From a virus, in IMG/VR virus record IMGVR_UViG_3300046167_000634, positions 1 through 63,624 of that record: DNA of 63,624 bases, one strand, 5' to 3'. Of the stretch, positions 10,907 to 56,132 are shown in pieces (the stretch's first letter is position 1; every line of letters begins with the position of its first letter). The position numbers were made by a program, and so were the translations under genes. The notes beneath the pieces were generated by a model, which was given only the letters and a program-made list of their open reading frames with translations, did no database searches and had not been told where the DNA came from.

Positions 10907-10945
10907 ATAGTGGTTAGGCCATCTTATGGGTGGCCTAACTATTAT
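10907..10945 (+). terminator. Strong 15-bp hairpin (terminator or RNA processing site)
   Basis: ATAGTGGTTAGGCCA pairs with TGGCCTAACTATTAT over 15 positions (two G-U pairs) around a 9-base loop. It occupies the gap between the gene ending at 10900 and the ring-protein start at 10959. A short AT-rich stretch rather than a pure T tract follows, so it could be a weak terminator or an mRNA processing/stability element. Confidence 0.55.
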
Positions 10946-10958
10946 TAATAAAAATATT

Positions 10959-11645: not shown

Positions 11646-11648
11646 TAA

Positions 11649-12541: not shown

Positions 12542-12542
12542 T

Positions 12543-15500: not shown

Positions 15501-16728
15501 AATCCAGGTATTTTTGAAACTGAACCAGCCGAAGATTTAAACCTTGATTTATACTATGCAGCAAGCCAAGCATTCCCTATAGCAGAGCATGGGAATGAAA
15601 AAACTTTAAATTGGTATAATTGTATTTCATTTGGTAATGGTGTAGAATCAAATAGAATACGTGATGATTATAATGCGCCTACGATTGATAAAGGGCCTAT
15701 TGTTTCTTCTGTATTAGATGAACCTTATAGAGAAGAGCGTAGGAAATCAAGTTTTATATTTTCACAAATATTTAATTCTACTTCCTGGTATTAATAGGTT
15801 AAACCAATTTATACAAGCTGAAAACATCACAAAAGATTTAAATCCTGTGCATGGTAGCATACAAAAACTACATTCTAGAGATACAGATTTGGTTACTCTT
15901 TGTGAAAATAAATGTTTTAAGGTATTATCTAATAAAGATGCATTATTTAATGCAGACGGTAATACTAATGTAACGTCAAATTTCAATGTTTTAGGTCAAG
16001 CAATTCCTTATCTAGGTGAGTTTGGTATATCAAATAACCCGGAAAGCTTTGCTGATTACGGCTTTAGAAGCTATTTTGCTGATAAAAATAATGGCAACGT
16101 TTTAAGACTTTCAAGAGATGGCATAGAAGAAATTTCTACCAAGGGTATGTCCGACTTTTTTACAGACGAATTGCGTATAGCAAAAAATATTATAGGTAAC
16201 TTTGACGAGGTCAGCGGAAGCTATAATATTACTTTAAACAATAAAACAATATCATTTAAAGAATCTGTAGGTGGTTGGCCATCTAGAAAATCATTTATAC
16301 CAGAGCAAGGAGTGTCTTTAAATGGAGTTTATTACACGTTTAAAAATGGTATTATTTGGTCGCATAATAATCCCTTAAAAAATACTTTTTATGGAGGAGC
16401 AACAGCTAAATCTTCTGTTAAATTAATATTTAATGATTCATCTTCAAAAATTAAAAACTTTAAAGCAATAAGCTATGAGGGTGATACCAGCTGGCAAGCA
16501 ACTAAAATAGTAACAGATAATCAAGAAGGTGTTGTTACAGATTTTAAAGAAAAAGAAGGAATTTATTACAACTTTATAAAAGGTGTGAATAATACGTGGG
16601 ATGGTGCTCTGCAAGCTGGAACACTAAACTTTAAAGAGTTTTCTACACAAGGAATTGGTAATTTATTATCAATTTCAGGTGATGATAAAACAGAATTTGT
16701 ACTAACAGTATCTGAAAATAACGATTAA
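12543..16728 (+). CDS. Tail stabilization / muzzle protein, cassette A (one frame break)
   Basis: The N-terminus (NKDLDERLLPNGEYRDALNI, residues ~15-34) is a signature I associate with the stabilization (muzzle) protein of crAss-like phages and related podovirus-like phages. The first frame ends at 15794 after 1083 residues. Removing one base in TTCCTGG at ~15786 joins it to the frame ending at 16728, giving ~1395 residues. The joined C-terminal part (GEFGISNNPESFADYGFRSY, then VLRLSRDGIEEIS) aligns with the cassette B gene at 54759. The protein likely closes the tail tube outside the rings. The adhesin gene follows after one base. Confidence 0.85.
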
Positions 16729-16729
16729 T

Positions 16730-18985
16730 ATGGCATTAGTTAATTGCACTATAAATTCGCAGTCTTTAACAAAAACCGCAGGTGCTCAAATAGGATCGGA
16801 TAACGCGCAGCTAGTTATTACTCCAAACGATGGGTTCGTTGTTACCGCTGGTGATTTTACGAACAATACAGGCGTTTTATCTGGCGTGTCAAGTATATCA
16901 TTAAGTGATAGCGGTACTCCAGGCACGATTGGTAATACAGTTTTAGTAAGCGTGGATCTAGATGATACCTTTACTATGCCGAGCTCTGATACAAATATTG
17001 TTATTGATATTGACGGCAGTGCCCAATTAGCACAATTTTCTTTAACTGGTAACTACAATATATTACAAGAAAATACAACATCTAGTAATGGTAATACAAG
17101 TTACACCGCTACCGGCAACTATAACCAAACTGTATCGGTATTTACGAAAACAATAACAGCTTCTGCAAACTATTATTTTAAAAACTTGCCGTATTATTAT
17201 ATAGATAGTAATTATGAAAATAATTATACTGTAACTGAGGTAAATACAACTGATAGCAATGGTAATGTTACCGCTGTTACTTTTACAGTAACATTTTTAA
17301 TGCCAAACGAAAATGTATCTGGGGACACAATTTATTTTGTAGCGAACGCATCGCCTTTAACTATTGTATTAGAAGAAATATACAGTTATGCTATTGCAAC
17401 AGCTAATATACCTTCGAATGGTGTTATTAGAAATTTAGAGCTATTAGGTAATCCAAACGCGGATTTTAATATTACTATTGAAACAAATAATGGTGTTGCG
17501 CCTTTTAATACATACGATTTTACGACAAACGAATTTACTTCAGATGTAACGAGCTTAGGCGCTTCGGTTATGCCTGCTCAAGGATTTGTTGCTTATGATA
17601 TATTTTTCCCGCCATCTGTTGCGGACGTATATAAAATAACATTATCTGGTGATTTAAATTTGCCCGCAGCAAAACCAAATCCATTTACTATTTCGCAGTA
17701 TGGTGACATTGATATTACAGTAGGTATTGATTCTATCGACGGAACACTCTTTCTCAGGCAAGATCAAATTATAACAACGAGAGCTGGACAAAATAATTCA
17801 TTTAATAAAACACTTTCTTTTGAAGTTTTTACTGATCCATCTCTAAACAACCCACAGCTTTTGTACATAGGTAATCAACCAAATATAAGTGATTGGGTTA
17901 TTAGCGCTTTAGATGGCTCAGATATTGAAGTTCTTTCTACTAGTATAACAGGTAGTGGAACTAATACACTTACAGTAACTGTTGAATTAGGAATAATTGA
18001 AACAGGTACATCAAATGTTAATATATCACTTGATATAGACCCTTACTTTAATACACCACCAGTTGCTGTTGCAGATTCAGCTAGTGTTAATAAAGGCGAT
18101 GACGTAACAATAGATGTGCTAAGCAACGACAGCGATGCAGATGGTGACTCTTTAAGTATTACAATTGTTTCAAACCCAACTGCCGGCACAGTCGCTACCA
18201 ACGCAAGCAACCAGCTTGTATATACGCATGATGACAGCAACACTTTAGCAGACTCATTTACATATAAAATTTCTGATGGATTTAATTTCAGTAATATCGT
18301 AACTGTTACAATTGGTATTGGGGTTTTACCAGGCGAATCTATAAACGCGAGCGGCGCTGTAGGTGTTTATTTAGTCCCTATAGTTTTAGGTACTGAAGCA
18401 GGTACATATAAAGTTCATTTTAATGCAGCAAGCGTACCCGATAGGGTGCAAATATTATTTGATTCGGCAGGAATATCCAATAATTTAGCTGATATGGAAA
18501 TACAAGCAGACTCTTTATTTGTCGGGGGAGATACTTCCCCGCCTGCCGCAGGAAACTCAGGTTTAGTAGCCAATAACACAATTGCCGGCAATACATTTGT
18601 TAATAATATTATTAATAATGATTATGACTCTACAACTACCGTCCACACTTTAGATGAGTTTTTATATAATGGGTCTTCGTTTGATGCTACGAATAACACT
18701 GTAAGTATTGACTTCACCACTGATGATATTGCGGATAATAGTGCTAATCGTTCCAACGCTGTTCCTAATGGCCAAGGGCAAATTGGTGTACAAAACCTTG
18801 TATATACAAGTATTTCTGATACAACTGGCACATCTAATCTTAATTATGCTGATGGAAATATTTGTATTACATTTACAAAAACAGCTACTACGGCATTTAA
18901 CGGGTATATTAGAGTTTATGGAATGACCACTCCGACTGGTATTACTTCGTGGAGAATATTCCAAACTGAATTTGTAACATCATAA
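16730..18985 (+). CDS. Large tail adhesin with cadherin-like / Big-type domain
   Basis: The 751-residue protein is rich in Thr, Asn, Gly and Val with beta-sandwich character and no signal peptide. Residues ~440-535 contain NTPPVAVADSASVNKGD, then LSNDSDADGDSLSI and DSFTYKISDG, the hallmark of cadherin-like (VCBS/tandem-95-type) Ca-binding repeats of surface adhesins. The C-terminal ~200 residues are a separate beta-rich domain. It is inserted between muzzle and the 107-residue protein; cassette B has no gene there but has a cadherin-like insertion inside its muzzle. Likely an exposed tail appendage that binds the host surface. Confidence 0.7.
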   Translation: MALVNCTINSQSLTKTAGAQIGSDNAQLVITPNDGFVVTAGDFTNNTGVLSGVSSISLSDSGTPGTIGNTVLVSVDLDDTFTMPSSDTNIVIDIDGSAQLAQFSLTGNYNILQENTTSSNGNTSYTATGNYNQTVSVFTKTITASANYYFKNLPYYYIDSNYENNYTVTEVNTTDSNGNVTAVTFTVTFLMPNENVSGDTIYFVANASPLTIVLEEIYSYAIATANIPSNGVIRNLELLGNPNADFNITIETNNGVAPFNTYDFTTNEFTSDVTSLGASVMPAQGFVAYDIFFPPSVADVYKITLSGDLNLPAAKPNPFTISQYGDIDITVGIDSIDGTLFLRQDQIITTRAGQNNSFNKTLSFEVFTDPSLNNPQLLYIGNQPNISDWVISALDGSDIEVLSTSITGSGTNTLTVTVELGIIETGTSNVNISLDIDPYFNTPPVAVADSASVNKGDDVTIDVLSNDSDADGDSLSITIVSNPTAGTVATNASNQLVYTHDDSNTLADSFTYKISDGFNFSNIVTVTIGIGVLPGESINASGAVGVYLVPIVLGTEAGTYKVHFNAASVPDRVQILFDSAGISNNLADMEIQADSLFVGGDTSPPAAGNSGLVANNTIAGNTFVNNIINNDYDSTTTVHTLDEFLYNGSSFDATNNTVSIDFTTDDIADNSANRSNAVPNGQGQIGVQNLVYTSISDTTGTSNLNYADGNICITFTKTATTAFNGYIRVYGMTTPTGITSWRIFQTEFVTS

Positions 18986-29974: not shown

Positions 29975-30008
29975 AAAGGGGACTCAATTACGAATCCCCT
30001 TTTTTATT
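29975..30008. terminator. Bidirectional terminator between convergent operons
   Basis: AAAGGGGA (29975-29982) pairs with TCCCCTTT (29995-30002) around a 12-base loop. An A-rich run lies on the left and a T-rich run on the right, so it can act on both strands. It lies between the lysin stop on + and the nrdA stop on -. Confidence 0.75.
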
Positions 30009-31775
30009 TACCCATCACAACTTAAACAATCTGGATCCATTGCTTTTGCTGCAATATCACCTCTGAGTACCGATTCGGTACGCATATAATATAAAGTCTT
30101 AACGCCTTTTTTCCACGCATCTAAATGCACTTGATTAATCCACTTAGGTGAAGCTTCAGAAGGAAACGCTAAGTTAAGTGATACAGCTTGATCAACATAT
30201 TGTTGTCTGATCCCAGCTTGATTAACCAGCTCTAATTGGTTTATTTCTTTAAAGGTTTTAAATACATCTTTGACTGTATCAAAGCCCGTTAAATCGAGCG
30301 ATTCTTGCTCTGAAATACGCGTAAGCTTTTTATTTACATATCCCCAATCATCTAGCTCAGGTATATCTTGTACACTGCCGCCATCGGCCATTATTTTATC
30401 CCACGTTTCATTAGTGTTAATACCTGCTTTACGAAGCACTTTAGTTAGCTCTTTGTTTTTCCTAATGAACGTACCCTTCGCACTTTGTTCAGTGAAAACA
30501 TTAGCGGCCCAAGGCTCAATACCAGGACTAACGTTACCGGCAAGCTTACTATTAGACACAGTAGGAGCAATAGCCCTAAGATGAGTGTTACGAAACCCAG
30601 TACCGCGGCACCACAAAGGTTCACCATAAACTTCAGCAAGAGCCCTAGATGCTCTTTCACTTTCAATTTTAATTTGCGAAAATATTCTTCGCGTTTCAAA
30701 CTGCGCTTGTAACCCCTCAAACGGGATTCCATTTTGCTGGAGGTATGTGTGCCATCCAAGTACGCCAAGGCCGATAGCTCTGCCTTTTTCTGCAGATCTG
30801 ACTGCATTTTCAAATCCTTTGAGTCCTTTTGCTTTTTGCAAATACTCTTCCAAGACGCCGTCAAGAAACCATATAGCGTCATATATAAGGTTTGTATTCT
30901 TCCACTCTTCATATTTAGTTAAATTTACTGATGATAAACAACAAACAAAGCTATGTGACTCATCTGTATGCAATGTAATTTCACTGCATATATTTGTCAT
31001 GTGTACCTTTAATGCGTTTTCTTTATATGCTTTTGGATTTGCTTTGTTAACATTTCCTTTAAACATGATATACGGCTCTCCAGTTGCTTTTCGTTTTCTA
31101 ATAAGTTTACTCCATCGAGTCCGCGCTTCCGAATCTCCTTGTTCAAGGCGTCGCATAAACTTATCACCAACAACTGCGCATTGATGAAGGTTGAGTGACT
31201 GTCTGTTAACGTCGCCTTTTGGTTCTCTAATTTCAAGCCACTCTTCAAAATCGTCGTGTTCAATATTGATATTGACTGATGCTGCGCCTCTGCGAACAGA
31301 GCCTTGATTAGTCGCGAGGATAGTTGAGTCGTAGATTTTGCAAAAGGGGACAACTCCGTCTGATGTTCCATTACCTGTAATTGTTGCTCCGGCAGGACGT
31401 ATCATATTTAATCCGATACCAACTCCCCCGCCGTGTTTAGCTAGTAACATCATTTCTAAATTTTTACCTCCTATGTCGGCTATGCTATCACCTACATCAA
31501 TGCCAAAGCAAGAAATAGGTAACCCAGCGATCAGTACCTGTGTTACTAAGTACAGGGCTAGCGAGGTTAAGCCAACCTTTCCAAATATAATCAAAAAACG
31601 TTTCACTCAGTTCCGGTTTGTACAATCGTCTTGCGACTGTTGTTGCGACTCTTTTGTATGCATCACGGGGTGACTCACCTTGCAGCAAATATCCCCCGGA
31701 TATAGTTTTCTTGTATACGTCGGTATCTCCCCAGATTGGGTAATCAATACCTTTTTTCCATTCATTATTCCACAT
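30008..31775 (-). CDS. nrdA: Ribonucleotide reductase class I large (alpha) subunit (one frame break)
   Basis: Reduces ribonucleotides to deoxyribonucleotides. Joining the N-terminal frame (31497-31775) to the main one needs removal of one base near 31530, restoring SPVLSNTGTDR-GLPISCFG. Motifs: NMIRPAG, NICSEI (catalytic Cys with Asn and Glu partners), CCLSSVNL, TLYYMR (two radical-transfer Tyr) and C-terminal CLSC. The protein (~588 residues) begins near the NTP-binding core and lacks the ~90-residue ATP-cone, so dATP feedback may be absent. Its start shares a base with the next upstream gene's stop. It pairs with nrdB at 32068. Confidence 0.9.
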
Positions 31776-32067: not shown

Positions 32068-33037
32068 TTACCAAATGTCTTCAAAGTCCTCGCCTTCACC
32101 AGCTTTCGAATAATCCGTCGGCCGAACCGCGAAAAAATCAGTATGAGTATGCCCCCCGGTAAGATGGTAGAACCAATCAAGATTGCTTGCTGCGTTTTTG
32201 TCAAATGGGATATGCGACTTAAGATCCGCGTAACCGAGTTCAACGAGTTTTTCATTTGTTCTCTTTTTTATAAAGTGTTTTAAATCATTTGCTTTAATGC
32301 CTTCAATGTCACCCATCTCAAACATTTTATCTATATACTTACATTCAAGTTTTACCATTGTTTCGGCAGCGGTAATAATATCTTTCCGACATAAGCTCTG
32401 CTAATTGATTGTTTTCACTGCACATATCGCGAAACAACTTACAACCCATTTTACTATGAAGTGATTCGTCGCGAACACTCCATTTCATTTGTTGTCCGAT
32501 ACCCTTAAGTAAATTGCGTAACTGGAAACTATATAAAACAGCAAAAGCTGAATAGAGACTAACACCTTCGGCGAAAGCTGAAAAAATTGCCAAAGACTTT
32601 CCAATACCAACAGAACTTGAACCGCTGTAAGCAACCAAATTATCAAATCTTTCTGCCGTAGCAGGCTCGTGTAAGAATGCTTCATAATCTTCTAATCCTA
32701 ATGTTTCATTTAAATAACTATATGCAACCGCATGTATTGTTTCTTGCGAACCAAACATCATTGCCATTTGTTGTATCTCGTGTTTAGGAAACCAACCTAC
32801 TACTTTCTGCGTCCAATAATCTGACACAGCACATTCAGTTTGAGCAAAACCTAAAAGTATATTACCTACTAAGTTTTTCTCTTCGTCTGTTAGTTTCTCT
32901 TTCCAATCTTTAACGTCTCCTTGCATTGGTATTTCAGTATGTAACCAAAATGCTTGTGCTTGTTTTAACCAACCTTCATTGTAATATTCAGGATATTCAA
33001 AAGGTTTATATGCTATACGCTCATCAAATAATCCCAT
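32068..33037 (-). CDS. nrdB: Ribonucleotide reductase class I small (beta) subunit (one frame break)
   Basis: Provides the diiron-tyrosyl radical for NrdA. FGSQETIHAVAYSYL contains the Glu-x2-His and, four residues after that His, the Tyr matching the radical Tyr122 of the E. coli protein, which fits class Ia. Further ligands appear in FAEGVSLYSAF and RDESLHSKM. The frame is broken near 32377 at an AAA run; removing one A yields DIITAAETMVKLECKYI. The C-terminus FEDIW is the peptide that docks to NrdA. The start overlaps the stop of the 49-residue gene upstream (TAATG). Confidence 0.9.
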
Positions 33038-33186: not shown

Positions 33187-33352
33187 ATACTTTTATATTA
33201 TGTTCTTCGTGTAATTTTACTATATCTTTATATTTTACATATCCTTTTTGATTGATAGACCACTTAATAAATTTATCAATCTGCCGCTCCTTATATTTTT
33301 GGCGGGCTACGTGTTTCGAGAGTTTAGGATTAACTCTATTGTTCTGTCGCAT
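33179..33352 (-). CDS. Small hypothetical basic protein (57 aa)
   Basis: ATG at 33352 gives MRQNNRVNPKLSKHVARQKY with a Lys/Arg-rich helical body, ending KVYG. It overlaps its upstream neighbour by 46 bases and the next gene by 8, so the three are tightly packed and probably translated together. No family is recognised; basic character may mean nucleic-acid binding. Confidence 0.5.
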   Translation of the reverse strand: MRQNNRVNPKLSKHVARQKYKERQIDKFIKWSINQKGYVKYKDIVKLHEEHNIKVYG

Positions 33353-33762
33353 TCAGCTTGATTTTGTGGTTTATATAATGTATAACTAGGAAACTGCTGT
33401 GACACTAGCAACTTAAATAGCTTCCAACGGATTGGAAAAGATTCATTTGCTCTGCCCTTAGTTTCAATAATAAAGTCTTCGCCTATAAAGTCAGGTGTAT
33501 ATTTTATTGGTAATATACGTTTACTGCCTCTATTTTGATAGCTGCCTTTACCATTAGCTTGTCTTTCAAAAGCTTCGTTTTCAAAATGAAAACCATTAAT
33601 AAGTACAAAAGTTTCACCCTCATACTTAGCTTTAATTTTAGCTTTCTTCAATCCCATATACATATAGCGTTCAAGCCCTGAAGCAAAGTTGATGCCATCA
33701 TATGATACCTTCTTTGCTTGTACAGGGCCTCGCTTTTTTCTTTTAAATGTTTTTCTTCGCAT
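33307..33762 (-). CDS. T7 endonuclease I-like (PD-(D/E)xK) nuclease
   Basis: The 151-residue product has a short basic N-terminus, SGLERYMYMGLKKAKIKAKYE, then YTPDFIGEDFIIETKGRANE, which supplies the D...ExK catalytic core. T7 endonuclease I has SGLE and YTPDF...VETKG at matching spacing. Such enzymes resolve four-way junctions and debranch recombination intermediates before packaging. It overlaps the previous (upstream) gene by 20 bases. Confidence 0.8.
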   Translation of the reverse strand: MRRKTFKRKKRGPVQAKKVSYDGINFASGLERYMYMGLKKAKIKAKYEGETFVLINGFHFENEAFERQANGKGSYQNRGSKRILPIKYTPDFIGEDFIIETKGRANESFPIRWKLFKLLVSQQFPSYTLYKPQNQAECDRTIELILNSRNT

Positions 33763-33973
33763 CTCTAATATAACATTCTTCTACTTCATTACGAAGTACC
33801 ATTCGTGCTTTTTCTAAATAGTTAACAGCATCCATAAGTTCTTCTTGCAAATGTTGTAACCATCTATCAAGCGGTTGATCATCATCGGCAAGTGTAACAC
33901 CGTATTTTTTATAGCCTACATCTGAGCGGCTTTGTATTTTATCAATTACTTGTTTAATTATTTGATCTCTCAT
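33743..33973 (-). CDS. Small MazG-superfamily-like protein (76 aa)
   Basis: Helical protein with RSDVGYKKYGVTLADDDQPL and WLQHLQEELMDAVNYLEK; the Glu-Glu-x2-Asp pattern and the KYG.TL...D motif are found in phage nucleotide pyrophosphohydrolases of the MazG/DUF550 type. Possibly trims dNTPs or guanosine nucleotides. Overlaps its upstream neighbour by 4 bases. Confidence 0.6.
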   Translation of the reverse strand: MRDQIIKQVIDKIQSRSDVGYKKYGVTLADDDQPLDRWLQHLQEELMDAVNYLEKARMVLRNEVEECYIRDAKKNI

Positions 33974-34731
33974 ACCGTGTCTTTTACAAATGTTCCATTT
34001 ACCATATTTCCAGTTCTATTACTGATCTCGCCATATGCACTATCGATACAATGCTCAATGTTGACACCAGCCAAAGTGGAAAGATTGGTAAGTACCACAA
34101 CGGCATCACCAATAGCGTCAATAATGTCCTCTTTATTGTTTTTGAGTATGGCGTCCGCAAGCTCGCCAACTTCTTCAAGTAACTTAATATATTGTGTTTT
34201 AACATCTCCATTTTGTGTTATGCCACGAACATCTGCCCATGAGCGAATTAAATCAAATGTATTATTACCAAGTGCCGGTTCCGCTATAAAAGCTTCGTGA
34301 TAAGCTTTGTTATATATGTAGCATCGGCCATCGTTATACATAGAAGGCTTTGCGTTAGCTACTATCCAGGGTATTGTTTCACTTGATATTTTAAATTTAC
34401 CAAGCCAGGTGTCCCATTCGGTACCTTGGTTATCCATTAGTGCGCCTTTTAGTTTGTTCATTGGCACTGGGAATGTTGTTGTTTGGTCTGTCGGGTTTAT
34501 TTTCATTTTATTTAATTTATTAAAGTATAAATTTTTATACTTTTTGTTATCTACTCTATAGCCATAAGACTTTTGAAGTTCTATTTCGCGGTCTGATATA
34601 TAATCTATATCGTCTGACTGCTCAAGAACTTCATATTCGTTAGGCTTATAGCCCTGCTGTTTAGTAACGCGAATAAAAAGATTACGTGTAACACCTATCT
34701 TCTTACCTGGTATGTGATATAAATAATACAT
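33970..34731 (-). CDS. MazG-type nucleotide pyrophosphohydrolase with GIY-YIG-like N-terminus
   Basis: 253 residues. Residues 1-60 (MYYLYHIPGKKIGVTRNLFI) resemble the start of a GIY-YIG nuclease but lack a clear YxG partner, so activity is uncertain. Residues ~165-245 are MazG: KLLEEVGELADAILKNNKED, IIDAIGDAVVVL, with the Glu and Asp metal ligands. MazG-type enzymes hydrolyse nucleoside triphosphates and can counter ppGpp. Its context in a nucleotide-metabolism operon fits. The middle ~100 residues (WDTWLGKFKIS) are unrecognised. Confidence 0.65.
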   Translation of the reverse strand: MYYLYHIPGKKIGVTRNLFIRVTKQQGYKPNEYEVLEQSDDIDYISDREIELQKSYGYRVDNKKYKNLYFNKLNKMKINPTDQTTTFPVPMNKLKGALMDNQGTEWDTWLGKFKISSETIPWIVANAKPSMYNDGRCYIYNKAYHEAFIAEPALGNNTFDLIRSWADVRGITQNGDVKTQYIKLLEEVGELADAILKNNKEDIIDAIGDAVVVLTNLSTLAGVNIEHCIDSAYGEISNRTGNMVNGTFVKDTV

Positions 34732-34734
34732 AAT

Positions 34735-35418
34735 TTATATTGCTACAGGTGCTGGTATATGAGGACCGTGTTGATAATCAACTAGTCGCACACCTTTGTT
34801 AGTACAAAATCTATATGCTGGTAAATTTCTAACTGGCTGCTCTAAATATTTCTTTACCGCTTCAATTTGGTTTAGATACACATGAGCATCAATAATATTT
34901 ACCGCAAGTTTACCTATTTGATAGCCTGTTTTATGTGCTACATAATTCATAATTAAAGTAAATAATGCAACATCATAAGGCACTCCTAAATACATATCCC
35001 CAGATCTTTGTACTACAAACATATTAATTTTTCCGTTCTCAACAAAGAATTGAAAGTATAAATAACAAGGAGGTAATGCCATCTTTTCTTGCTCAGCTGG
35101 ATTCCACAGCGATATAACATGACGACGGCTATCTGGTTCGTGACATAAGCCCCATATAACGTCCTTCATCTGATCAAAACCTTGACTATTAAAGTTTCTA
35201 AGCTGATGGCCATAAACAGGCCCTAAATCGCCATTTTCATCTGCCCAAGCATCCCATATTTTAACACCTGCTTTTTTAAATCTTTCAATGTTTGTTTCAC
35301 CATTTAAAAACCATTTCATTTCAGTGTTAAAAACTTTAGGGAACATCTTACGACCAGTTAATATAGGAAAGCGATTGTTAACATCAAATTCCATACTTTG
35401 ATTAAATATAGAATACAT
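34735..35418 (-). CDS. Thymidylate-synthase-family pyrimidine (hydroxy)methyltransferase, N-terminally short
   Basis: Motifs ADENGDLGPVYGHQ, DSRRHVISLWNP, ALPPCYLYFQF (nucleophilic Cys) and RSGDMYLGVPYDVAL are thymidylate synthase motifs. In dUMP enzymes the last one reads ..PFNIA.., with Asn reading the pyrimidine. Here it is Asp (codon at 34972-34974), which matches T4 dCMP hydroxymethylase Asp179, and Tyr follows the catalytic Cys where His is usual. So dCMP may be the substrate. The start is ~25 residues later than in E. coli ThyA and lacks the RTG phosphate-binding Arg. Upstream is a truncated ERF gene, so the N-terminus may be deleted. Confidence 0.75.
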   Translation of the reverse strand: MYSIFNQSMEFDVNNRFPILTGRKMFPKVFNTEMKWFLNGETNIERFKKAGVKIWDAWADENGDLGPVYGHQLRNFNSQGFDQMKDVIWGLCHEPDSRRHVISLWNPAEQEKMALPPCYLYFQFFVENGKINMFVVQRSGDMYLGVPYDVALFTLIMNYVAHKTGYQIGKLAVNIIDAHVYLNQIEAVKKYLEQPVRNLPAYRFCTNKGVRLVDYQHGPHIPAPVAI

Positions 35419-35626
35419 CTACTGCAACGGCAACACTTTCAATAACACCCTCACCTAAATAGGTTTCGTCTACTTTAAAGTACACATTGTACTTTTCATT
35501 AAACGGCTTTAGTGCTTCAAGTATATCTTCAGCAGATCGGAAATTATACTTTCCGAATGAATTAAAGCGACTCTTCTTTGCTTTAAATTCTTGTTGAATT
35601 TTACTTAATTTCTCGTGAATTGTCAT
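35402..35626 (-). pseudogene. ERF-family single-strand annealing protein, C-terminally truncated
   Basis: The N-terminal ~60 residues (KLSKIQQEFKAKKSRFNSFG, then KYNFRSAEDILEALKPF) match ERF-type annealing proteins, which are usually ~200 residues. The frame ends after 74 residues where it enters the following synthase gene in another frame. Either a deletion fused two genes or the assembly lost sequence. ERF proteins promote recombination with single-stranded DNA in phages. Confidence 0.7.
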
Positions 35627-35656: not shown

Positions 35657-36418
35657 CTACAGGTAATCAATAACTTGGTTCGATGGAACGTTATCAATTA
35701 ACTTCTCTATTGCTGCTTTTTTAATTTCAGATACACGCACATAATTACTTACTCCGTCTATATTTAATTTAGCAGCTATCTCCTTTGCTGGGTGTTTGTC
35801 ACAGTCTAAGCCATAAGATAATCTTATTACTTCATACTCTTTATCACTTAAATGCTCACTCATAAGGCCGAGTAAATAAGCATTCAGCAAAGCTATGTTA
35901 TAAGGCTCGGAGTTATCCGGTACTTGAAACATAGGGCTTTCGTTTTCACTTTCAAAATTCTCATCTATTGATGCAAATATTTGGTTAAAAAAGGTTTCAA
36001 CTATTTTTTTGTCTTTACCATAATTTTTACGTATCTCATTTAATTTATATTCTGGTATACGCATATCCCCTCTATTTATATCTATAGCTCTTCTAATAGC
36101 ACCTCGTATTCTTTTAGCTAAGAATGATTTGAGCGTTTTTTCAGGGTCGTCAGACTCTTTAACTTTATCCCAAACAATTCTATCGCATGCCACAGTAAGT
36201 CCTATTGCACCCTCTTGTATAAAATCATTTATACTAAGCACTCCAGACGCTTGCTGCATAGTAGAAAACTTTCGCGCTATATTTTCTACTAATGGTAAAA
36301 ACACGGTTTGCAGTTCTTCTCTAGTATAATCCCAAAAGTCTTTACTAGGTATTCTTTTTATTACTACATCTAGATCTTGTTTATATCTAATATAGTTCTG
36401 CACATTATACTTTTTCAT
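35657..36418 (-). CDS. Phage RNA polymerase sigma factor (sigma-70 family)
   Basis: 253 residues. LPLVENIARKFSTMQQASG and INDFIQEGAIGLTVACDRI correspond to region 2 (core binding and -10 recognition), followed by FLAKRIRGAIRRAIDIN. Residues ~190-245 (LSDKEYEVIRLSYGLD, AKEIAAKLN, RVSEIKKAAIEKL) form region 4 with its helix-turn-helix. It would direct host RNA polymerase to phage promoters, probably of the late cassettes. Its start overlaps the stop of the HTH gene by 14 bases, so the two regulators are cotranscribed. Confidence 0.85.
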   Translation of the reverse strand: MKKYNVQNYIRYKQDLDVVIKRIPSKDFWDYTREELQTVFLPLVENIARKFSTMQQASGVLSINDFIQEGAIGLTVACDRIVWDKVKESDDPEKTLKSFLAKRIRGAIRRAIDINRGDMRIPEYKLNEIRKNYGKDKKIVETFFNQIFASIDENFESENESPMFQVPDNSEPYNIALLNAYLLGLMSEHLSDKEYEVIRLSYGLDCDKHPAKEIAAKLNIDGVSNYVRVSEIKKAAIEKLIDNVPSNQVIDYL

Positions 36419-45193: not shown

Positions 45194-46745
45194 ATGTCTG
45201 ACGCAATCGTTAAGAACTTAAACTTTGGATCGGATGCCCGAGAAAAAGTTTATAGCGGAATAGAAAAACTCACTAAAGCCGTTAGCTCTACATTAGGGGC
45301 TAGCGGACTTAGTGTTATACTGGAAAACGATAAAGGTAATCCGGTAATTACAAAAGACGGTGTAACCGTAGCTAATAATATCTTTTTACGCGACCCTGTT
45401 GAAAATATGGGTGCTACGCTTTTAAAAGACGCAGCGCGGAAAACTGTAAAAGAAGCAGGTGATGGAACAACTACCGCAACAGTACTTGCGCATTCAATTT
45501 TAAAAAGTGCTTATAAAGCATTAGAAACTGATAGCTCTAGAACTTTAAAAGAAGGTATAGCTACAGGGTGTTGAAAAAGTTGTATCGTATTTAGAAAAAG
45601 TTGCAATACCGGTTAACGGTGATATGATTGATCAAGTTGCAACCATATCTGCTAACAATGATAAAGAGCTTGGTAAGCTTATAAGTGATGCATTCAAGTC
45701 TGTGGGCAACACAGGCGTTGTTATAATGCAAGAAACAGATCAACCTGAAACAAGTATAGAGGTTGTAGATGGAGTGCAATACGAGCAGCCATTGAAGTCC
45801 AACCACTTTATAACAAATCAAAATACAGGCGCTGCAGAACTTGAAAACCCATATGTGCTTATTTCGGAATCAACTATACCGAATATTCGTAGGGTTCAAG
45901 CAGTACTGGAGCATGTTATAAAGCATAACAAGTCGCTTCTAATTATTGCAAACGTTGAGCCGCAAGTATTGAATACACTTGCAATGAATAAAATGAAAGG
46001 TAACATAAAAGTAAATGTTATTGATCTTCCAACATATGGTATTACAAAAAAAGAAGTAATGGAAGACCTTTCAATGCTTACAGGCGCTAAGATTATAAAT
46101 GAAGATCTTGGCGATGATATGGACCTAATAGATATTGAGATGCTAGGCACATGCGTAAAAGCCGTAACAAACAACGAAGAAACTGTTTTACAAATAGAAG
46201 GTAGAACAGAAGAAGTTGAAGAAAAAATTAAATCAATACAAGAAGAGTTAGAAAAGCCAATGATGCCAGGTTATATTACAAGGTATGAAAAAAGGCTTGG
46301 AAGACTTTCTGCAAAAGTAGCCGTTGTAAAAGTCGGTGCTAATTCAGAAGTTGAATTAAAAGAAAAGCGCGACCGAGTTGAGGACGCGATATGTGCTACC
46401 AAAGCCGCGATAAAAGAAGGTATAGTACCAGGCGGTGGAATAGCCCTTTTAAATGCCGCGCAAAAAACTAAAGCAAGCGGCAAAGGTGAAGAGGTTCTTT
46501 TAGAATCAATTAAAGCGCCTTTTTATACAATACTGAATAATGCAGGTATTGAAGAATTTGAAGAGCCTAATATCAAAGGCAAAGGGCTGAATGTTGTTAC
46601 AGGGAGTATGGTGAATATGATAAAATCTGGTATCATAGATCCATTGCTTGTTACTAAAAGTGCTCTTCGGAACGCGGCTTCAGTAGCTACAACAATAATA
46701 TCAACAGATTGTGTAATTAATAATGTTAGAGTTGAACAGTTATGA
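45194..46745 (+). CDS. groEL: GroEL-type chaperonin (one frame break)
   Basis: Folds or protects phage proteins in an ATP-dependent barrel. The first 126 residues contain ENDKGNPVITKDGVTVANNI and the nucleotide-binding motif GDGTTTATVLAHSI. The frame closes at 45574; removing one G in ACAGGGTGTTG near 45568 restores ATGVEKVV and the frame to 46745. Further motifs: IEGRTEEVEEKIKSIQEELE, KRLGRLSAKVAVVKVGANSE, VPGGGIALLNAA and GIIDPLLVTKSALRNAASVA. Length ~516, slightly under host GroEL (~545). The break is probably a sequencing insertion. Confidence 0.9.
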
Positions 46746-48504: not shown

Positions 48505-49461
48505 ATGTCAATAAACGTAGATACCGTATACAGAACTGTCTTGTTGGTAATGAACAAGGAGCAGCGCGGCTACTTGACACCTGAAGAATTTAATAAAATA
48601 GGTGAACAGGCGCAGTTTGAAATATTTAATTCATATTTTGAAGAATTAAATCAGCAGCTACGCACGCCTGAAAATGACAGCGAATACGCTAACAGAGTAA
48701 GAAGTTTAGAAGAAAAACTTGAATACTTTAAGCAAACACCTACAGCTCTAACATTTTTTGCAGACAGCGGCGCCTCTTCACAATATTTTGCTCCACCCGA
48801 AAGTTCTACAATTGTTAATAGCGAAAGCATAACCACAACTTCTGCTCAAGTTTATAATTTAACAATCCCTCCTCAAACCGTTAAAGACGGTACTTTAAAT
48901 GTATTTTTAAACGGCGCTGAAATATCCTCCCCGGCTGATTATATTATATCTACAGACGGAACAAGTATACAGTTAACAAGTATCCCCGTGGGCGGTGGCT
49001 CTTTAACTATAAATGTATATGAAAATAATTTTTATAAATTAGGTACAGTTATATATAATAATCCAACTCCCTCAGAAAACGTAATACAAATAGAAGAAGT
49101 TGATAGGGTTAAATTACTAAAGTTAAATAATTCAAGTTACAGCAAGCCTGATAAAAATACACCAGTATATGTGTATGAAAATAATAAATTATTTATCCGG
49201 CCTACAAGTATTGTTTCTAATGTGATCGCAAGCTTTATTAGAAAACCTATTGCACCCAAATGGGATTTTACTGTAGATACTGCCACACAAGCATATGTGT
49301 ATAATTATAATACTAGTGTAAATTTTGAATTAGATGCAATTGAACAAACATCTCTTGTTATAAGAATACTACTCTACGCGGGTGTTGTTGTTAAAGACCC
49401 TCAAGTAGTACAGGTTGCAGCAAGTCAAATACAACAAGAACAAGCAAACGAAAAAAGTTAA
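48505..49461 (+). CDS. Tail ring / tail tubular protein, cassette B copy 1
   Basis: 318 residues. It matches the cassette A ring protein at 10959 from the start (VDTVYRTVLLVMNKEQRGYL, TPEEFNKIGEQAQFEIFNSY) and at the C-terminal RILLYAGVVVKDPQ. In between it has a ~80-residue beta-rich insertion (LTIPPQTVKDGTLNVFLNG) absent from A. Probably a ring between portal and tail. Confidence 0.75.
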   Translation: MSINVDTVYRTVLLVMNKEQRGYLTPEEFNKIGEQAQFEIFNSYFEELNQQLRTPENDSEYANRVRSLEEKLEYFKQTPTALTFFADSGASSQYFAPPESSTIVNSESITTTSAQVYNLTIPPQTVKDGTLNVFLNGAEISSPADYIISTDGTSIQLTSIPVGGGSLTINVYENNFYKLGTVIYNNPTPSENVIQIEEVDRVKLLKLNNSSYSKPDKNTPVYVYENNKLFIRPTSIVSNVIASFIRKPIAPKWDFTVDTATQAYVYNYNTSVNFELDAIEQTSLVIRILLYAGVVVKDPQVVQVAASQIQQEQANEKS

Positions 49462-49464
49462 TAG

Positions 49465-50379
49465 ATGGCTATACCGAATGGTGGGTTAATAACCCAAACT
49501 AACGAACAATATTACGACGGAAACGATTACGGCAGCTATAAGTACACATCGATGAATGATGTTATTAATAACTTTTTAATTAGCTACGTGGGTGATGATA
49601 AAATATTTCCCGCTGTTAAAAGAACAGATGTAGTATTCCATGCAAAGCGCGCAATGCAGGAGTTCAGCTATGATACTTTAAAAAGTATAAAATCGCAGGA
49701 GCTTACTGTGCCTAATAATTTAACCTTAGCCATACCTCAGGATTACGTGAATTACGTAAAGCTTTCTTGGGTTGATAGTTTAGGGGTAAAACACATTATA
49801 CAACCAACTAGACTTACTAGTAATCCAAGCGAAATACCTTTGCAAGACGGCGATGGTATACCTACGCAAGATAACACTGGGGAAAACATAACAGGAACTT
49901 CAATTACAGAAGAGCGCTGGTCAGAGGCCGATACAAAGAAAATAACAGGTGTTTATGATCCTTTCTTTGAAGATGCTAATACTTACATAGCCCCTGATTA
50001 TAAAACCACATACGGGCAGCGATTTGGCCTTACGCCTGAATCCACCCAAATCAATGGTTGGTTTACAATAGATGATAGCGAGGGCAAATTTTCTTTTTCA
50101 AGCAATCTAGTAGATAAAGTTATTATACTTGAATATATATCAGATGGCCTTGCATATACAGAAGACACAAAAATACCTAAGCTAGCAGAAGAAGCTTTTT
50201 ATGCATATATAGCTTATGCAATTGCAGCGGTGCGCCCAACTATTCCAGAATACATAATTAACCGGTTTAAAAAAGAAAAGCGCGCAAAACTTAGAAATGC
50301 TAAGCTTAGAATATCTAATATTAAAATAGAAGAAATTACACAGGTATTTAGAAATAAATCTAAAATAATTAAACACTAA
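49465..50379 (+). CDS. Tail ring / tail tubular protein, cassette B copy 2
   Basis: 304 residues. The start (GLITQTNEQYYDGNDYGSYK) and DVINNFLISYVGDDKIFPAV match the cassette A gene at 11649 throughout, including FGLTPESTQINGWFTIDDSE and PEYIINRFKKEKRAKLRNAK. The frame is intact here and shows how the broken A copy should read. The stop shares one base with the muzzle start. Confidence 0.8.
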   Translation: MAIPNGGLITQTNEQYYDGNDYGSYKYTSMNDVINNFLISYVGDDKIFPAVKRTDVVFHAKRAMQEFSYDTLKSIKSQELTVPNNLTLAIPQDYVNYVKLSWVDSLGVKHIIQPTRLTSNPSEIPLQDGDGIPTQDNTGENITGTSITEERWSEADTKKITGVYDPFFEDANTYIAPDYKTTYGQRFGLTPESTQINGWFTIDDSEGKFSFSSNLVDKVIILEYISDGLAYTEDTKIPKLAEEAFYAYIAYAIAAVRPTIPEYIINRFKKEKRAKLRNAKLRISNIKIEEITQVFRNKSKIIKH

Positions 50380-53300
50380 TGCCAGAAGCTAAAAATACTT
50401 TTCTTAAGGCAAAAATGAATCAAGACCTGGACGACAGGTTATTGCCAAACGGGGAATATAGAACTGCTCAGAATGTACTTGTTGGTAAATCTGAAGAAGA
50501 CAGCGTTGGTACTTTACAAAATATTAAGGGCAATGAAATACTAGACACCTTAGTAAGACCCGCTAATTCTTTTATTATAGGGTATTTAATGGATACTACT
50601 AAAAATAAAATATATGCATTTTTTACTGATGATAATAGTAATCATTCAATAAGGTGTCATACTATAAATACAGACAGCGGGTGGGATATATTAGTAGAGG
50701 GTAGCTTTTTAAATTTTAACACAAACTTTCCAATTTTAAACGTAAACCTTTTAGAAGATTTATTATTTTGGACAGATAATAATAACCAGCCTAGAAAAAT
50801 AAACGTAACCCATTCTTTAGGTTACTACACAGAAGAGCATCAAATCAGTGTTGCTAAATACAATCCATACCAACCTATATCGCTTGTAAAGCAGGAAATA
50901 GAAGAAGTATTAACTGTAACAAGCACTACCGAGTTCACTGTTGCAGAAAATGCTAACATCGTGGAGGGTATGATTGTATTGTCTAAAAGGGGAATAGCGT
51001 CTGAAATAACAGCTGTTAATTATATTACAGTAGATAGTGTAAGCACAGCGGCAAATATTACTACTGTAACCTTAGCTTCTGCTGCGTCGTCAATTAACGC
51101 CGGCGATATTATGTACTTTCTTTCAAGTACAATGACTGATCAGTCTGCAAATGCATCTTGGCCTGGCGACCCTAGTTATTTAGAAAGCAGATTTGTAAGA
51201 TTTTCATATAGGTTTAAATTTGACGATAACGAATATTCTATATTTGCGCCATTTACGCAAATAGCTTTTATTCCTAAACAAAAAGGATATTTTGTAAACG
51301 GGCAAGAACAACTTGCTGTTAATAGTACAATACTTGAGTGGTTTGAAAATGGCATTAATAATATTGAATTAATTGTTCCTTTACCAAACACTCCACAAAA
51401 TATTTTTAGTAGTTATAAAATTAAAGAAATAGATATTCTTTATAAAGAATCAGATCAAATACCTGTAAAAATAATTGACACAATAAGTGTTACGGATATT
51501 CCATCAAGTTCAGATAACTATTATACATATAGCTACCAATCAAGAAAACCGGTTAGAACACTTCCTGAAGCGCAAACCGTAAGGGTATATGATAAAGTGC
51601 CTGTAAAGGCTAATACTCAAGAAATTGTTAGTAATAGAGTTGTATACGGTAATTTTAAAACTAAGCATACACCCCCAGATACAATAAACTACACTGTAAA
51701 CATTGAAGAAAAAAGAACAAATGGTGGGTTTGATAGTTTTGCAGAATACCCAAATCATACGGTAAAACAAAATAGAACTTATCAAGTAGGCTTCGTATTG
51801 TCAGATAAATATGGTAGACAATCCGATGTAATTTTATCTCCAGTTTCTGAATCAAGTGACAATAAAGGATCTACAATATTTGCTCCATATATACCCGATG
51901 ATCCTGAGGGCTCTGGGATTCCAGATCAAAATTACATGCCTTCCGGTGTAAAAAATTGGTTTGGAAATTCATTAATTTTAACTGTTCAATCCGCTATAAC
52001 AGGAACTGATGACACCAAACTTTATGCCGAAGAAATAGGAAACGGATTTAATATTGATACTACATATCCCCCTATTATTAATGGAAATACTTACTCATTT
52101 ACACTTTCTGGAACAGATACAACAGGAATTCCTCAGGAAGGATATTATATGCGCGGTCATACTAAAGACTACGTAGAAATTACTGCGGTTACACCTTTAG
52201 CGCAATCTTCATATCAAGTAACAACTAACGGGCAGGTTAGTAATGTTTATTTAAAAAATACAGAAATTGTTTCAACGCTTGAAGACACAAAATTTACATA
52301 TAGAATAAATCCATTAGGTTGGTATTCATATAAAATTGTAGTTAAACAAACAGAGCAAGAATATTATAATGTGTATTTGCCGAGCGCTATTAATGCTAAC
52401 GTCTTCCCTACCACTAAAACAACGGACACAGCAGCATCGGTAAGCTATATTACACTTATTAATGATAATATAAACAAAGTGCCACGCGATTTAGCGGAAG
52501 TCGGGCCTGACCAAAAGCAATATCGCAGTAGCGTTAGATTATTCGGCAGAGTACAACCAAAGGCTACTGGCTCGCCCATTGTATACGGAAACAATCAATA
52601 TTTCCCGCTTAGAACAGCAGACACATCAACAGCCGTTGGTAATACAGATGATATACTTGGTGATTCAAATACCGCCCCAACAGCCGAAAATGCCGTTTTC
52701 CAATATGATTCAAACCCAATAGTGGCTAGAATATCTACAAATAAAGAATTTGGAATTGATGCGACTTCCTTTGGCGGAACTCCAGCTGTATCAGATAGAT
52801 TTTCATTAGCAGTATACGAAACAGAACCTGTAGTTTCTGCATTAGATATATATTGGGAAACAAGCCAGGCAGGGCTTATATCTGATTTAAATGCTAAAAC
52901 TTCTGTAGGGTTTAATGGGCCTGTAGGATTAGAAGGGTGGGAAGATTTATTTAATGAAAATGTCCCTGCATCTGACCCAGTTACAGAATATTTTTCACCT
53001 TTAAAAGCTGATGGAACAAATTTAAATAATTTTACAATTAATATTCATAGTGTTACTAATGGTAACAATGACCCTATTACAGGTAAATTTGAGCTTCAAC
53101 AAAATCCACAAGCTTCTACTGAATATAGAATTATACTACTAGAAAACGAGGTATTTAATTTTAATAGTGATAATGTAGATGAATATACTTTTACATTTAG
53201 AATTACGGATGATGATGCGTTGTCAACATGGGTTAGCGCTGACGTAGTTGAAACATTAAAGCTATCAAATACTGAACCTAGTTTTACTACCCAGCCGCCA

Positions 53301-54728
53301 GGCACGTTTTATAATTTTGATGAAGAGGCTACTCTAAACACAATAATACATAATTTTGGTAGTAACACCCCTAGAAACGGTAGCGCTAGCTCAACAGGAA
53401 ATACCGAAGGTCTAAAGTGGTCTATTAGCGGTACAAATGCTAATTTATTTACTATAAACCCTGTAACAGGAGTGCTTAATCCTACCGCAGCCGGCCTTAG
53501 TGCTGGGCTGAATACATATTCTCTTGAAGTAACATTAGCAGACGCTTCAAATACAAACCAATCTTTAGGAGTGGGTAGCGAATCAGTTACACAAATATAT
53601 AATATTGTAAAAGGCTATACTCAGTGGAATGGAACGCAACAGGGGCTACCTATGGGAAGTATATTTACATTTGATATAACCCAGTGTGATGCTGGATGTT
53701 ATACTACGGCTTACGAATGTTTTTATATGACAAATAATACGTCTATTTCAAATTCTAATTTGCCTAATTTTAATAACGGTGGTGCATATGGTTCTGGTTT
53801 GGCTACCTACGAACAAGCGCTTGCCCCTGAAAAAATAGCAGCAGGCCATGAAAGAGGTGCGTTTTTATTCGGCATAGAAAAAGCCCTAATTATAAACGCT
53901 GGCCCCTGTAATGCTACAAAAATAGTTAATGTTTCTGGAAGAGCTTATTATAGAACTAGCGGTAGTAGCAATTGGATTTATAAGGACGATTTAAATAATA
54001 CAAATAGTTTAGGAATTAGAATTCAACAAGCAAATGAAATAGATTATGCTTTAGGGTATGCATGGTATAGCCAAGATAGAAATAATTTTCCCGCTGCAAA
54101 TAATATAGAGTGGGCATTTGTAATAAAATCTATTGGCACAGATAATGCAGGCTACCCCCGCCCTCCTGGGTGTACACAGCCTTCATATGGCGACACAATC
54201 ACCTGGGGTGGATTAGCAACTGCTAGAGATTTACATTATAACTCACCTACCCAATCGCAAGCAATTTATGAATATGTTACTTGGCCTGACGGAGGTGCTA
54301 GTGCTCCTGCAAATGTAACTTATTCTGGAACCTCTCAAACTTTATATTCAGATAATCCTTTAGTAGAAACAAATGCTAAATTTTTTACAGATGCAAACTT
54401 ATCAAATATTTGGAAGCCTGCTACCGACCAATATTATACCGTAAGATTTTTAGATGGGCCTGGAAACACGAACCCGCAGGGCTGTACTGGAACAGATAGA
54501 TATGCTAATAATACTCAATTTAATAACAACAGTTATATACAAGCCGAAGGCATAATGAAAATTCAAACATCAGGATTGGTAGATAGAACAGTTACTCCTG
54601 TTGCTAATGCTGGCGCCGCAGGTAACGCGGGAACTATTCGCTCAGGTAACAATTTTAGAACAAGAATTACTGAATGTGATTATACAAACACCTATTTTGA
54701 AGAGCAATTAACAAATCCTGGTCCGTAA
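50379..54728 (+). CDS. Tail stabilization / muzzle protein, cassette B N-terminal part with cadherin-like insertion
   Basis: 1449 residues. MNQDLDDRLLPNGEYRTAQN near the start is the muzzle signature, as in the A protein. The match to A continues to about residue 830 (EPVVSALDIYWETSQAG here, EPAEDLNLDLYYAASQAF in A). Then a cadherin-like segment (~960-1080; EPSFTTQPPGTFYNFDEEAT, FTINPVTGVL) and an unrecognised C-terminal region with several Cys residues follow. In A the muzzle continues directly, so B appears to have inserted a domain block here and split the gene. It probably forms the outer tail tip, with added host-binding domains. Confidence 0.8.
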   Translation: MPEAKNTFLKAKMNQDLDDRLLPNGEYRTAQNVLVGKSEEDSVGTLQNIKGNEILDTLVRPANSFIIGYLMDTTKNKIYAFFTDDNSNHSIRCHTINTDSGWDILVEGSFLNFNTNFPILNVNLLEDLLFWTDNNNQPRKINVTHSLGYYTEEHQISVAKYNPYQPISLVKQEIEEVLTVTSTTEFTVAENANIVEGMIVLSKRGIASEITAVNYITVDSVSTAANITTVTLASAASSINAGDIMYFLSSTMTDQSANASWPGDPSYLESRFVRFSYRFKFDDNEYSIFAPFTQIAFIPKQKGYFVNGQEQLAVNSTILEWFENGINNIELIVPLPNTPQNIFSSYKIKEIDILYKESDQIPVKIIDTISVTDIPSSSDNYYTYSYQSRKPVRTLPEAQTVRVYDKVPVKANTQEIVSNRVVYGNFKTKHTPPDTINYTVNIEEKRTNGGFDSFAEYPNHTVKQNRTYQVGFVLSDKYGRQSDVILSPVSESSDNKGSTIFAPYIPDDPEGSGIPDQNYMPSGVKNWFGNSLILTVQSAITGTDDTKLYAEEIGNGFNIDTTYPPIINGNTYSFTLSGTDTTGIPQEGYYMRGHTKDYVEITAVTPLAQSSYQVTTNGQVSNVYLKNTEIVSTLEDTKFTYRINPLGWYSYKIVVKQTEQEYYNVYLPSAINANVFPTTKTTDTAASVSYITLINDNINKVPRDLAEVGPDQKQYRSSVRLFGRVQPKATGSPIVYGNNQYFPLRTADTSTAVGNTDDILGDSNTAPTAENAVFQYDSNPIVARISTNKEFGIDATSFGGTPAVSDRFSLAVYETEPVVSALDIYWETSQAGLISDLNAKTSVGFNGPVGLEGWEDLFNENVPASDPVTEYFSPLKADGTNLNNFTINIHSVTNGNNDPITGKFELQQNPQASTEYRIILLENEVFNFNSDNVDEYTFTFRITDDDALSTWVSADVVETLKLSNTEPSFTTQPPGTFYNFDEEATLNTIIHNFGSNTPRNGSASSTGNTEGLKWSISGTNANLFTINPVTGVLNPTAAGLSAGLNTYSLEVTLADASNTNQSLGVGSESVTQIYNIVKGYTQWNGTQQGLPMGSIFTFDITQCDAGCYTTAYECFYMTNNTSISNSNLPNFNNGGAYGSGLATYEQALAPEKIAAGHERGAFLFGIEKALIINAGPCNATKIVNVSGRAYYRTSGSSNWIYKDDLNNTNSLGIRIQQANEIDYALGYAWYSQDRNNFPAANNIEWAFVIKSIGTDNAGYPRPPGCTQPSYGDTITWGGLATARDLHYNSPTQSQAIYEYVTWPDGGASAPANVTYSGTSQTLYSDNPLVETNAKFFTDANLSNIWKPATDQYYTVRFLDGPGNTNPQGCTGTDRYANNTQFNNNSYIQAEGIMKIQTSGLVDRTVTPVANAGAAGNAGTIRSGNNFRTRITECDYTNTYFEEQLTNPGP

Positions 54729-54758
54729 AAATTATTAAAAAACAAGTGATTAAATAGT

Positions 54759-56132
54759 ATGTCAGCTACAATAGAATTAAAATACTATAACTCTTTCTGG
54801 GGAAAGAAGATAAAAAGTATAACTGATACAACTCCAGCTATAGATGATTTTACTAATGTACCTCAGGACTATGCTGGCGACGATGATGAAGATTGGTATA
54901 TTGAAGAATCACGTATACGCGGCGGTTACAATAATACTACAGTAGATTTTGGCGTAAAAGCATATGCTGTAGATGCGGTAAAAAAAGGTGAAACGCGCGT
55001 AAATGCAATGATTTATTCTGGCATTTATAATTCAAGAACTGGTATAAATGAAACGAATCAGTTTTCAGTTGCTAAAGATATTACTAAAGGTGTAGATCCT
55101 GCTTATGGTTCAATACAAAAGTTATATGCTGAAGACAGCAACCTTATAATATTTCAAGAAGATAAAGTTAGTAGAGCGCTTATAGATAAAGATGCAATAT
55201 ATTCAGCCGAAGGCGGAGGAACTGTAACATCTGCTAATTTAGTTATTGGGCAGATTGTGCCTTATGCAGGTGAGTTTGGAATATCAACAGAGCCTGAAAG
55301 CTTTGCAGTATATGCATATAGAAAATACTTTACTGATAGAAAACGAAATGCTGTTTTAAGGCTATCCAGAGACGGTATTGAAGAAATATCTCGTTATGGC
55401 ATGACTGACTTTTTTAGAGATGAATTAGCTAGCTTAAACGGCTCTATAAACTCAGTTACGCAAAGAATTGACGGAAGAATTATAGGCGGGTACGATATTC
55501 ATACTAAAAAATATGAATTATCTATACAACCTAACGGAACATTTAAAGAAACAAATACTGACCCATATAAAACTCTTTCTTTTGACGAAAGCGTTAAAGG
55601 CTGGACAAGCTTTTATACTTATGCGCCAGATTTTATGGGTAGCCTAGGAAATGCATTTTATTCGTTTAAAAATGGGCAAGTATACAAACATTATAGCGAT
55701 ACATCTGCAAAAGGAACATTTTATGGGGATCCGCAGCCTTCAGCGGTTACATTTATATTTAACCCAAATGTTTCAATGTCTAAAAACTTTAAAACAGTAA
55801 ATTACGAAGGTACAGCCGCTTGGGAAGCGCAGATAACAACAGACAGTGATACACAAGAAAGATTATTAGGTATTAGACCTTATCAATTCGCAGGATCACT
55901 TTCGCAAATACAAAATGATTTTATTGCATCAAATATTTTTATTAAGAAAGAAAATAAGTATTTTGCAAATATATTAAACGCACAGCCTGCAAAACCAGGT
56001 GAAATTGTATTTGGTGATCAAATTAGCGGCTTAAAAGGTTTTGTAGCTACAGTTACATTTTCTACAGCAGCTACTACCGCGGATAGAGAATTATTTGCAG
56101 TATCTACAGAATACGTGCAATCATCATATTAA
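54759..56132 (+). CDS. Muzzle C-terminal part, cassette B (separate gene)
   Basis: 457 residues. It begins MSATIELKYYNSFWGKKIKS, which corresponds to the region of the A muzzle around KTLNWYNCISFGNG. It then follows A (ITKGVDPAYGSIQKLYAEDS, GEFGISTEPESFAVYAYRKY, VLRLSRDGIEEISRYGM). Its last ~45 residues match the free 107-residue protein of cassette A (18988). So one A gene plus a second A gene are represented here as one C-terminal piece. Starts 30 bases after the N-terminal part. Confidence 0.8.
   Translation: MSATIELKYYNSFWGKKIKSITDTTPAIDDFTNVPQDYAGDDDEDWYIEESRIRGGYNNTTVDFGVKAYAVDAVKKGETRVNAMIYSGIYNSRTGINETNQFSVAKDITKGVDPAYGSIQKLYAEDSNLIIFQEDKVSRALIDKDAIYSAEGGGTVTSANLVIGQIVPYAGEFGISTEPESFAVYAYRKYFTDRKRNAVLRLSRDGIEEISRYGMTDFFRDELASLNGSINSVTQRIDGRIIGGYDIHTKKYELSIQPNGTFKETNTDPYKTLSFDESVKGWTSFYTYAPDFMGSLGNAFYSFKNGQVYKHYSDTSAKGTFYGDPQPSAVTFIFNPNVSMSKNFKTVNYEGTAAWEAQITTDSDTQERLLGIRPYQFAGSLSQIQNDFIASNIFIKKENKYFANILNAQPAKPGEIVFGDQISGLKGFVATVTFSTAATTADRELFAVSTEYVQSSY

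Follow-up and report, generated by a model that had tools for sequence, protein, structure and literature searches.

A thymidylate synthase-family enzyme with a predicted dCMP methylase function in uncultured aquatic phages

INTRODUCTION

In the DNA of Xanthomonas phage Xp12, 5-methylcytosine stands in place of every cytosine. To our knowledge, no phages other than Xp12 and its kin are documented to exchange all of their cytosine for the 5-methylated base.

Substitution of Asp for Asn at position 177 (E. coli ThyA numbering, used below unless stated otherwise) makes ThyA a dCMP methylase yielding 5-methyl-dCMP. In a metagenomic screen of cytosine-modified phage contigs, positions 177 and 147 showed the highest differential conservation of the thymidylate synthase (TS) family, and TS genes co-occurred with PF01503 pyrophosphohydrolase genes (PMC8670742). 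T4 gp42 carries a signature of hydroxymethylation, made up of Asp or Glu three residues before the catalytic Cys (Asp145), Ser or Thr (Ser94) two residues before Tyr96, and the lack of a C-terminal tail; the gp42 substitution D145N was reported to abolish formation of 5-hydroxymethyl-dCMP, and Trp83 and Leu143 of E. coli ThyA keep water from the active site (PMC6400193).

The window analyzed here, 63,624 bp of the virus record IMGVR_UViG_3300046167_000634, carries a TS-family gene (Table 1). An earlier note made from the sequence alone had proposed that its product acts on dCMP. We compared this enzyme and its gene neighborhood with those of related phages and of the described systems.

Table 1. 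Positions of the enzyme gene, its neighbors and the corresponding genes of marine sister phages
Feature	Position	Strand	Basis
TS-superfamily enzyme, dCMP-type, N-terminally truncated in the window	34735..35418	-	PF00303, alignment
Codon of Asp149, base-reading residue (Asn177 of E. coli ThyA; Asp179 of T4 gp42)	34972..34974	-	
Catalytic Cys118 (codon 35065-35067) and next residue Tyr119 (codon 35062-35064; His147 of E. coli ThyA)	35062..35067	-	alignment
Junction found only in the window, about 3.7 kb missing	35415/35416	.	comparison with relatives having flanking sequence
MazG-type protein, MazG/PRA-PH (all-alpha NTP pyrophosphohydrolase) domain at the C-terminus, candidate dCTPase	33970..34731	-	
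Conserved small ORF following MazG; relatives share this order	33743..33973	-	
DUF1064 / Holliday-junction-resolvase-like protein, bordering the cassette on the right	33307..33762	-	
Ribonucleotide reductase (RNR) small subunit, shortened by the 124-bp gap at 33178/33179	32345..33037	-	
RNR large subunit, spread over two overlapping frames but a single ORF in relatives	30008..31775	-	
ERF ssDNA-annealing protein, N-terminal fragment, cut by the 35415/35416 junction	35402..35626	-	
Sigma-like factor, left neighbor of the replication block	35657..36418	-	
T4-type dCMP hydroxymethylase of marine sister phages	L265 6526-7200; L266 11002-11703; L267 6354-7037; L268 3726-4427		

The enzyme gene of the window and its relatives

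The ORF encodes 227 amino acids and matched PF00303 in a profile search (E=7.5e-72, 242 bits); its score also exceeds the NCBIfam thymidylate synthase cut-off. A scan of viral contigs provided 39 close relatives (L002–L040) with 56%–98% identity, and these phages have a single TS-family gene each. Among bacterial chromosomal sequences, the best matches were ordinary ThyA enzymes with 38%–47% identity, and none belonged to this clade.

The ATG at 35418 is a non-native start immediately preceded by a TAG stop codon; in the 97%–98% identical relative L002, the gene starts farther upstream. Compared to L002, the window lacks about 3.7 kb, from mid-ERF up to residue 2 of the TS ORF. In L002, this segment encodes the remainder of ERF, an exonuclease, SSB, a primase/helicase, the product of a small ORF, and the N-terminal part of TS with the equivalent of Arg21. 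The junction occurs in none of the fetched relatives, and every relative for which flanking sequence is available has the missing segment. A second clean window-specific gap, absent in relatives, removes 124 bp at 33178/33179. The L002 contig (62,928 bp) looks like a complete circular genome since it carries a 127-bp repeat at both ends. The window junctions represent either deletion or misassembly, and the window copy of the enzyme is truncated and probably non-functional. Inferences about function accordingly draw on the relatives.

Active-site residues, fold, and phylogeny

The earlier note had read the base-reading Asn of thymidylate synthases as Asp and the His following the catalytic Cys as Tyr, and the alignment bore out both readings. 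Asp149 of the window enzyme occupies position 177, and Tyr119, following Cys118 (position 146), occupies position 147; Asp177 and Tyr147 were found in 39 of 39 related viral loci, which excludes chance or sequencing error. The Asn177/His147 pair of canonical dUMP thymidylate synthases is thus missing in the window and in all of these relatives. A wider alignment included the 39 relatives, further enzymes from phages and bacteria, and named references. In this alignment, the two positions change together, since His147 was present in 117 of 120 rows with Asn177 and in 0 of 54 rows with Asp177.

T4 gp42 shares with the window enzyme the TS fold, the catalytic Cys, and the base-reading Asp, but differs from it at the other signature positions. 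In the alignment, gp42 has Asp143, Ser92, and Val83 and no tail, while the window clade has Leu143, Pro92, Trp80, Trp83, and a C-terminal tail. In the window, these residues are Leu115 and Pro67, which replace the Asp/Glu and Ser/Thr of the signature, and Trp55 and Trp58; the tail reads APVAI. With about 40% identity to ThyA-type enzymes, the window enzyme is not gp42-like. The dUMP hydroxymethylase of SPO1 also has Asp143. The Xp12 relatives AXL1 and AAT-1, which were compared in place of Xp12 itself (MT664984), have Asn143 with Asp177, and the Xp12-type combination of Asp177 with methylase rather than hydroxymethylase residues is present in the window enzyme.

The AlphaFold model of the intact L004 enzyme (pLDDT 78) matched ThyA structures with a TM score of about 0.82. 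Foldseek grouped it with ThyA structures including 1njc, the N229D variant of Lactobacillus casei TS with dCMP. The engineered variants, ThyA N177D and L. casei TS N229D, likewise combine a ThyA scaffold with Asp in place of Asn at the base-reading position, but the window enzyme is natural, has the additional H147Y change, and is accompanied by a conserved companion gene.

In an unrooted maximum-likelihood tree of 58 proteins, the window enzyme and its relatives grouped as a single clade (100/99), and a branch with support of 96/94 placed this clade on the ThyA side. The branches of T4 and SPO1 were very long and their positions unsure. The window clade was separated both from the Asp177 enzymes of Pamexvirus, with Asn177 ThyA on the window-clade side, and from a third Asp177 group (L078, L080, and L081), with Asn177 enzymes in between. 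In this unrooted topology, at least two of the Asp177 groups look independent in origin.

The Pamexvirus enzymes (AXL1 gp63 and AAT1_02046 of AAT-1) resemble the window clade in having Asp177, a residue other than His at 147, no Asp143, an adjacent PRA-PH pyrophosphohydrolase gene, and one TS-family gene per phage. They differ in their separate branch in the tree, in Phe83, Asn143, and Pro147, in an adjacent dCMP deaminase gene, and, in AXL1 and AAT-1, in an annotated DHFR; their MazG partner and that of the window clade are not close homologs. The TS of cytosine-modified environmental phage contigs identified by MetaGPA share with the window clade the same two residue positions and the same PF01503 co-occurrence, while the carbamoyltransferase and deaminase of those contigs were not seen in the window clade (PMC8670742).

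A MazG-type companion and a shared enzyme slot

In the window, the MazG-type gene lies downstream of TS at a distance of 3 bp from the stop codon, and its product matched PF03819 (28.4 bits) and PF01503 (22.9 bits) above the cut-offs. A MazG/PRA-PH gene was found downstream of TS in 39 of 39 loci, immediately in nearly all of them and at a distance of 3–9 bp in most. Residues E186, E187, E190, D205, and D209 are invariant, and the EExxE and ExxxD-like motifs are conserved. The structure model matched MazG, MazZ of phage S-2L, and mouse dCTPase with 5-Me-dCMP, weakly over the whole chain, which makes this protein a candidate dCTPase, although the fold match alone leaves specificity unfixed. Considered as a mark of Asp177 enzymes, MazG adjacency is weakened by Asn177 thymidylate synthases adjoining PRA-PH genes in 4 of 19 records; the Asp177 loci L080 and L081 have no PRA-PH gene next to TS. 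The N-terminal region of the window protein (33970-34731) contains a conserved YxYHIxGKKIGVTRN...R...E pattern resembling GIY-YIG nucleases by eye, and it had no Pfam match.

The earlier note had suggested a search for a matching dCMP kinase or dCTPase. The adjoining gene supplies a candidate for the latter, while no dCMP kinase was found: T4-type dNMP kinase (DNMK, PF21448), as well as dCMP deaminase (PF00383) and DHFR (PF00186), were not detected in 18 clade records, including the circularly closed relative. Phosphorylation of 5-methyl-dCMP would therefore be performed by a host or an unrecognized enzyme. Neither a DNA polymerase nor a base-decorating transferase was recognized among the ORFs scanned, and the host would incorporate the modified nucleotide.

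The enzyme gene occupies a slot between the primase/helicase and the MazG-type pyrophosphohydrolase. In marine relatives with 76%–78% terminase identity, the gene order is identical (SIG-ERF-EXO-SSB-primase/helicase-x-[enzyme]-MazG-x-DUF1064-RNR), and the same slot is occupied by a T4-type dCMP hydroxymethylase gene, after which comes the orthologous gene for MazG. The marine enzyme carries the motifs SNYG, DTPCT, and FCND, is tailless, and has annotated deoxycytidylate hydroxymethyltransferases as its best named matches. In two complete, more distant genomes, MW202828, which encodes ThyX, and Flavobacterium phage elemoA, both the enzyme and MazG are missing. The enzyme and MazG are thus gained or lost jointly, and either of two cytosine-type enzymes occupies the slot. 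The same pattern suggests that the slot is a cytosine-modification cassette with a swapped enzyme. With a probability that we place slightly short of even, an independently evolved, ThyA-derived dCMP methylase took over the locus of the T4-type hydroxymethylase while MazG was kept; the swap may have run in either direction. If true, close relatives would have 5-hydroxymethylcytosine or 5-methylcytosine DNA according to the slot enzyme, and fully 5-methylcytosine phage DNA would have a second natural origin.

Predicted reaction and alternative explanations

The proposal that dCMP is the substrate is well supported by the residue pair, by its association with cytosine modification in the literature, and by the T4-type dCMP hydroxymethylase in the slot of sister phages. 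As to the product, which the earlier note gave as 5-hydroxymethyl- or 5-methyl-dCMP, the 5-methyl option agrees with the methylase features, while the 5-hydroxymethyl option is disfavored by the missing T4 residues and the presence of a tail. Leu143, Pro92, Trp80, Trp83, and the tail, set against the T4 signature, lead to 5-methyl-dCMP as the predicted product.

From the residues and their conservation, the gene order, the slot shared with T4-type hydroxymethylase, and the absence of hydroxymethylase signatures, we infer the following scheme, which covers the reaction, the specificity of MazG, and the incorporation of the product into DNA with the protection that this would give. The enzyme would transfer a one-carbon unit from methylene-tetrahydrofolate to C5 of dCMP, with Asp177 reading the N3/4-amino edge of cytosine. 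This unit would then be reduced by hydride transfer, as ThyA does on dUMP, giving 5-methyl-dCMP. The MazG-type protein probably cleaves dCTP to dCMP, which would both remove the unmodified precursor and supply the substrate, and host kinases would convert the product to 5-methyl-dCTP. Phage DNA would then contain 5-methylcytosine instead of cytosine, as in Xp12, and could be shielded from restriction enzymes. We consider it probable that the family is a dCMP methylase of this kind, with a MazG dCTPase partner and 5-methylcytosine DNA.

Formation of 5-hydroxymethyl-dCMP by a dCMP hydroxymethylase like T4 gp42, leading to DNA with 5-hydroxymethylcytosine that is possibly further decorated, would fit the Asp shared with Asp179 of T4 and the enzyme found in the slot of the sisters. 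It is unlikely given Leu in place of Asp145, the residue whose change to Asn was reported to abolish the reaction in gp42 (PMC6400193), Pro in place of Ser94, the retained Trp83 and tail, and the lack of any recognized glycosyl- or carbamoyltransferase among the ORFs scanned. The enzyme might instead serve thymidylate supply rather than DNA modification, if host dCMP deaminase converted 5-methyl-dCMP to dTMP. This bypass would be consistent with these phages having no other TS-family gene and with the presence of ThyX in MW202828, which lacks it, but it appears quite improbable, because a phage dCMP deaminase was found in 0 of 18 clade records and the hydroxymethylase in the same slot of the sisters makes a product useless for this purpose.

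We regard as very unlikely an ordinary dUMP thymidylate synthase that tolerates Asp and is fed with dUMP by MazG acting as dUTPase. Sequence and fold nearest to ThyA, the score above the NCBIfam cut-off, and the PRA-PH genes adjoining some Asn177 enzymes are in line with it, but Asp177 and Tyr147 are strictly kept across a divergent clade, published Asp mutants shift preference to dCMP (PMC8670742), and the slot is common to a dCMP hydroxymethylase. Whatever the family does, the chances are even that the window gene itself is a decayed or misassembled fragment with no function here: both window junctions are absent in relatives and the RNR large subunit is divided over two frames, but the remaining frame is undamaged and shares 97% identity with that of an intact relative, and a misassembly would mean that the real virus is intact.

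For the family, dCMP methylation thus being the preferred reading, an Xp12-like strategy reached separately in uncultured aquatic phages is the best reading of the comparisons. If true, the presence of another dCMP methylase, of separate origin, in abundant uncultured aquatic phages would show that this trait evolves repeatedly, and the hydroxymethylase in the slot of the sisters would represent a natural swap experiment on the choice between 5-methylcytosine and 5-hydroxymethylcytosine. Automated annotation, with scores above the TS cut-off, would hide such cytosine-modifying enzymes, which two residues would reveal.

Restriction-site composition and other genes of the window

Avoidance of restriction sites as a sign of protected DNA proved uninformative, since no purged 4-mers were detected in 35 of 36 Asp177 contigs of at least 10 kb, nor in 38 of 38 terminase relatives. 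In 20.7 kb, the Asp177 contig L038 contains neither CATG nor GATC and only a single CTAG; this purging counts against full DNA protection, under which it would be unneeded. Purging of GATC and CCGG was limited to the ThyX phage MW202828 (L257 and L258), in which GATC does not occur in 60 kb, nor CCGG in at least 42 kb.

The hosts are probably Flavobacteria, judging from the relatives. The RNR gene pair of the window type is replaced by a different RNR large-subunit family in L031 (12676-14550) and 24 other loci. The window gene for GroEL (45194-46745), a single long ORF in relatives, appears split or shortened. Two sets of ORFs, at 10926-18985 and 48505-56132, match the same virion-structural families, phrog_14543 and phrog_14478, which suggests a duplication or a chimeric contig.
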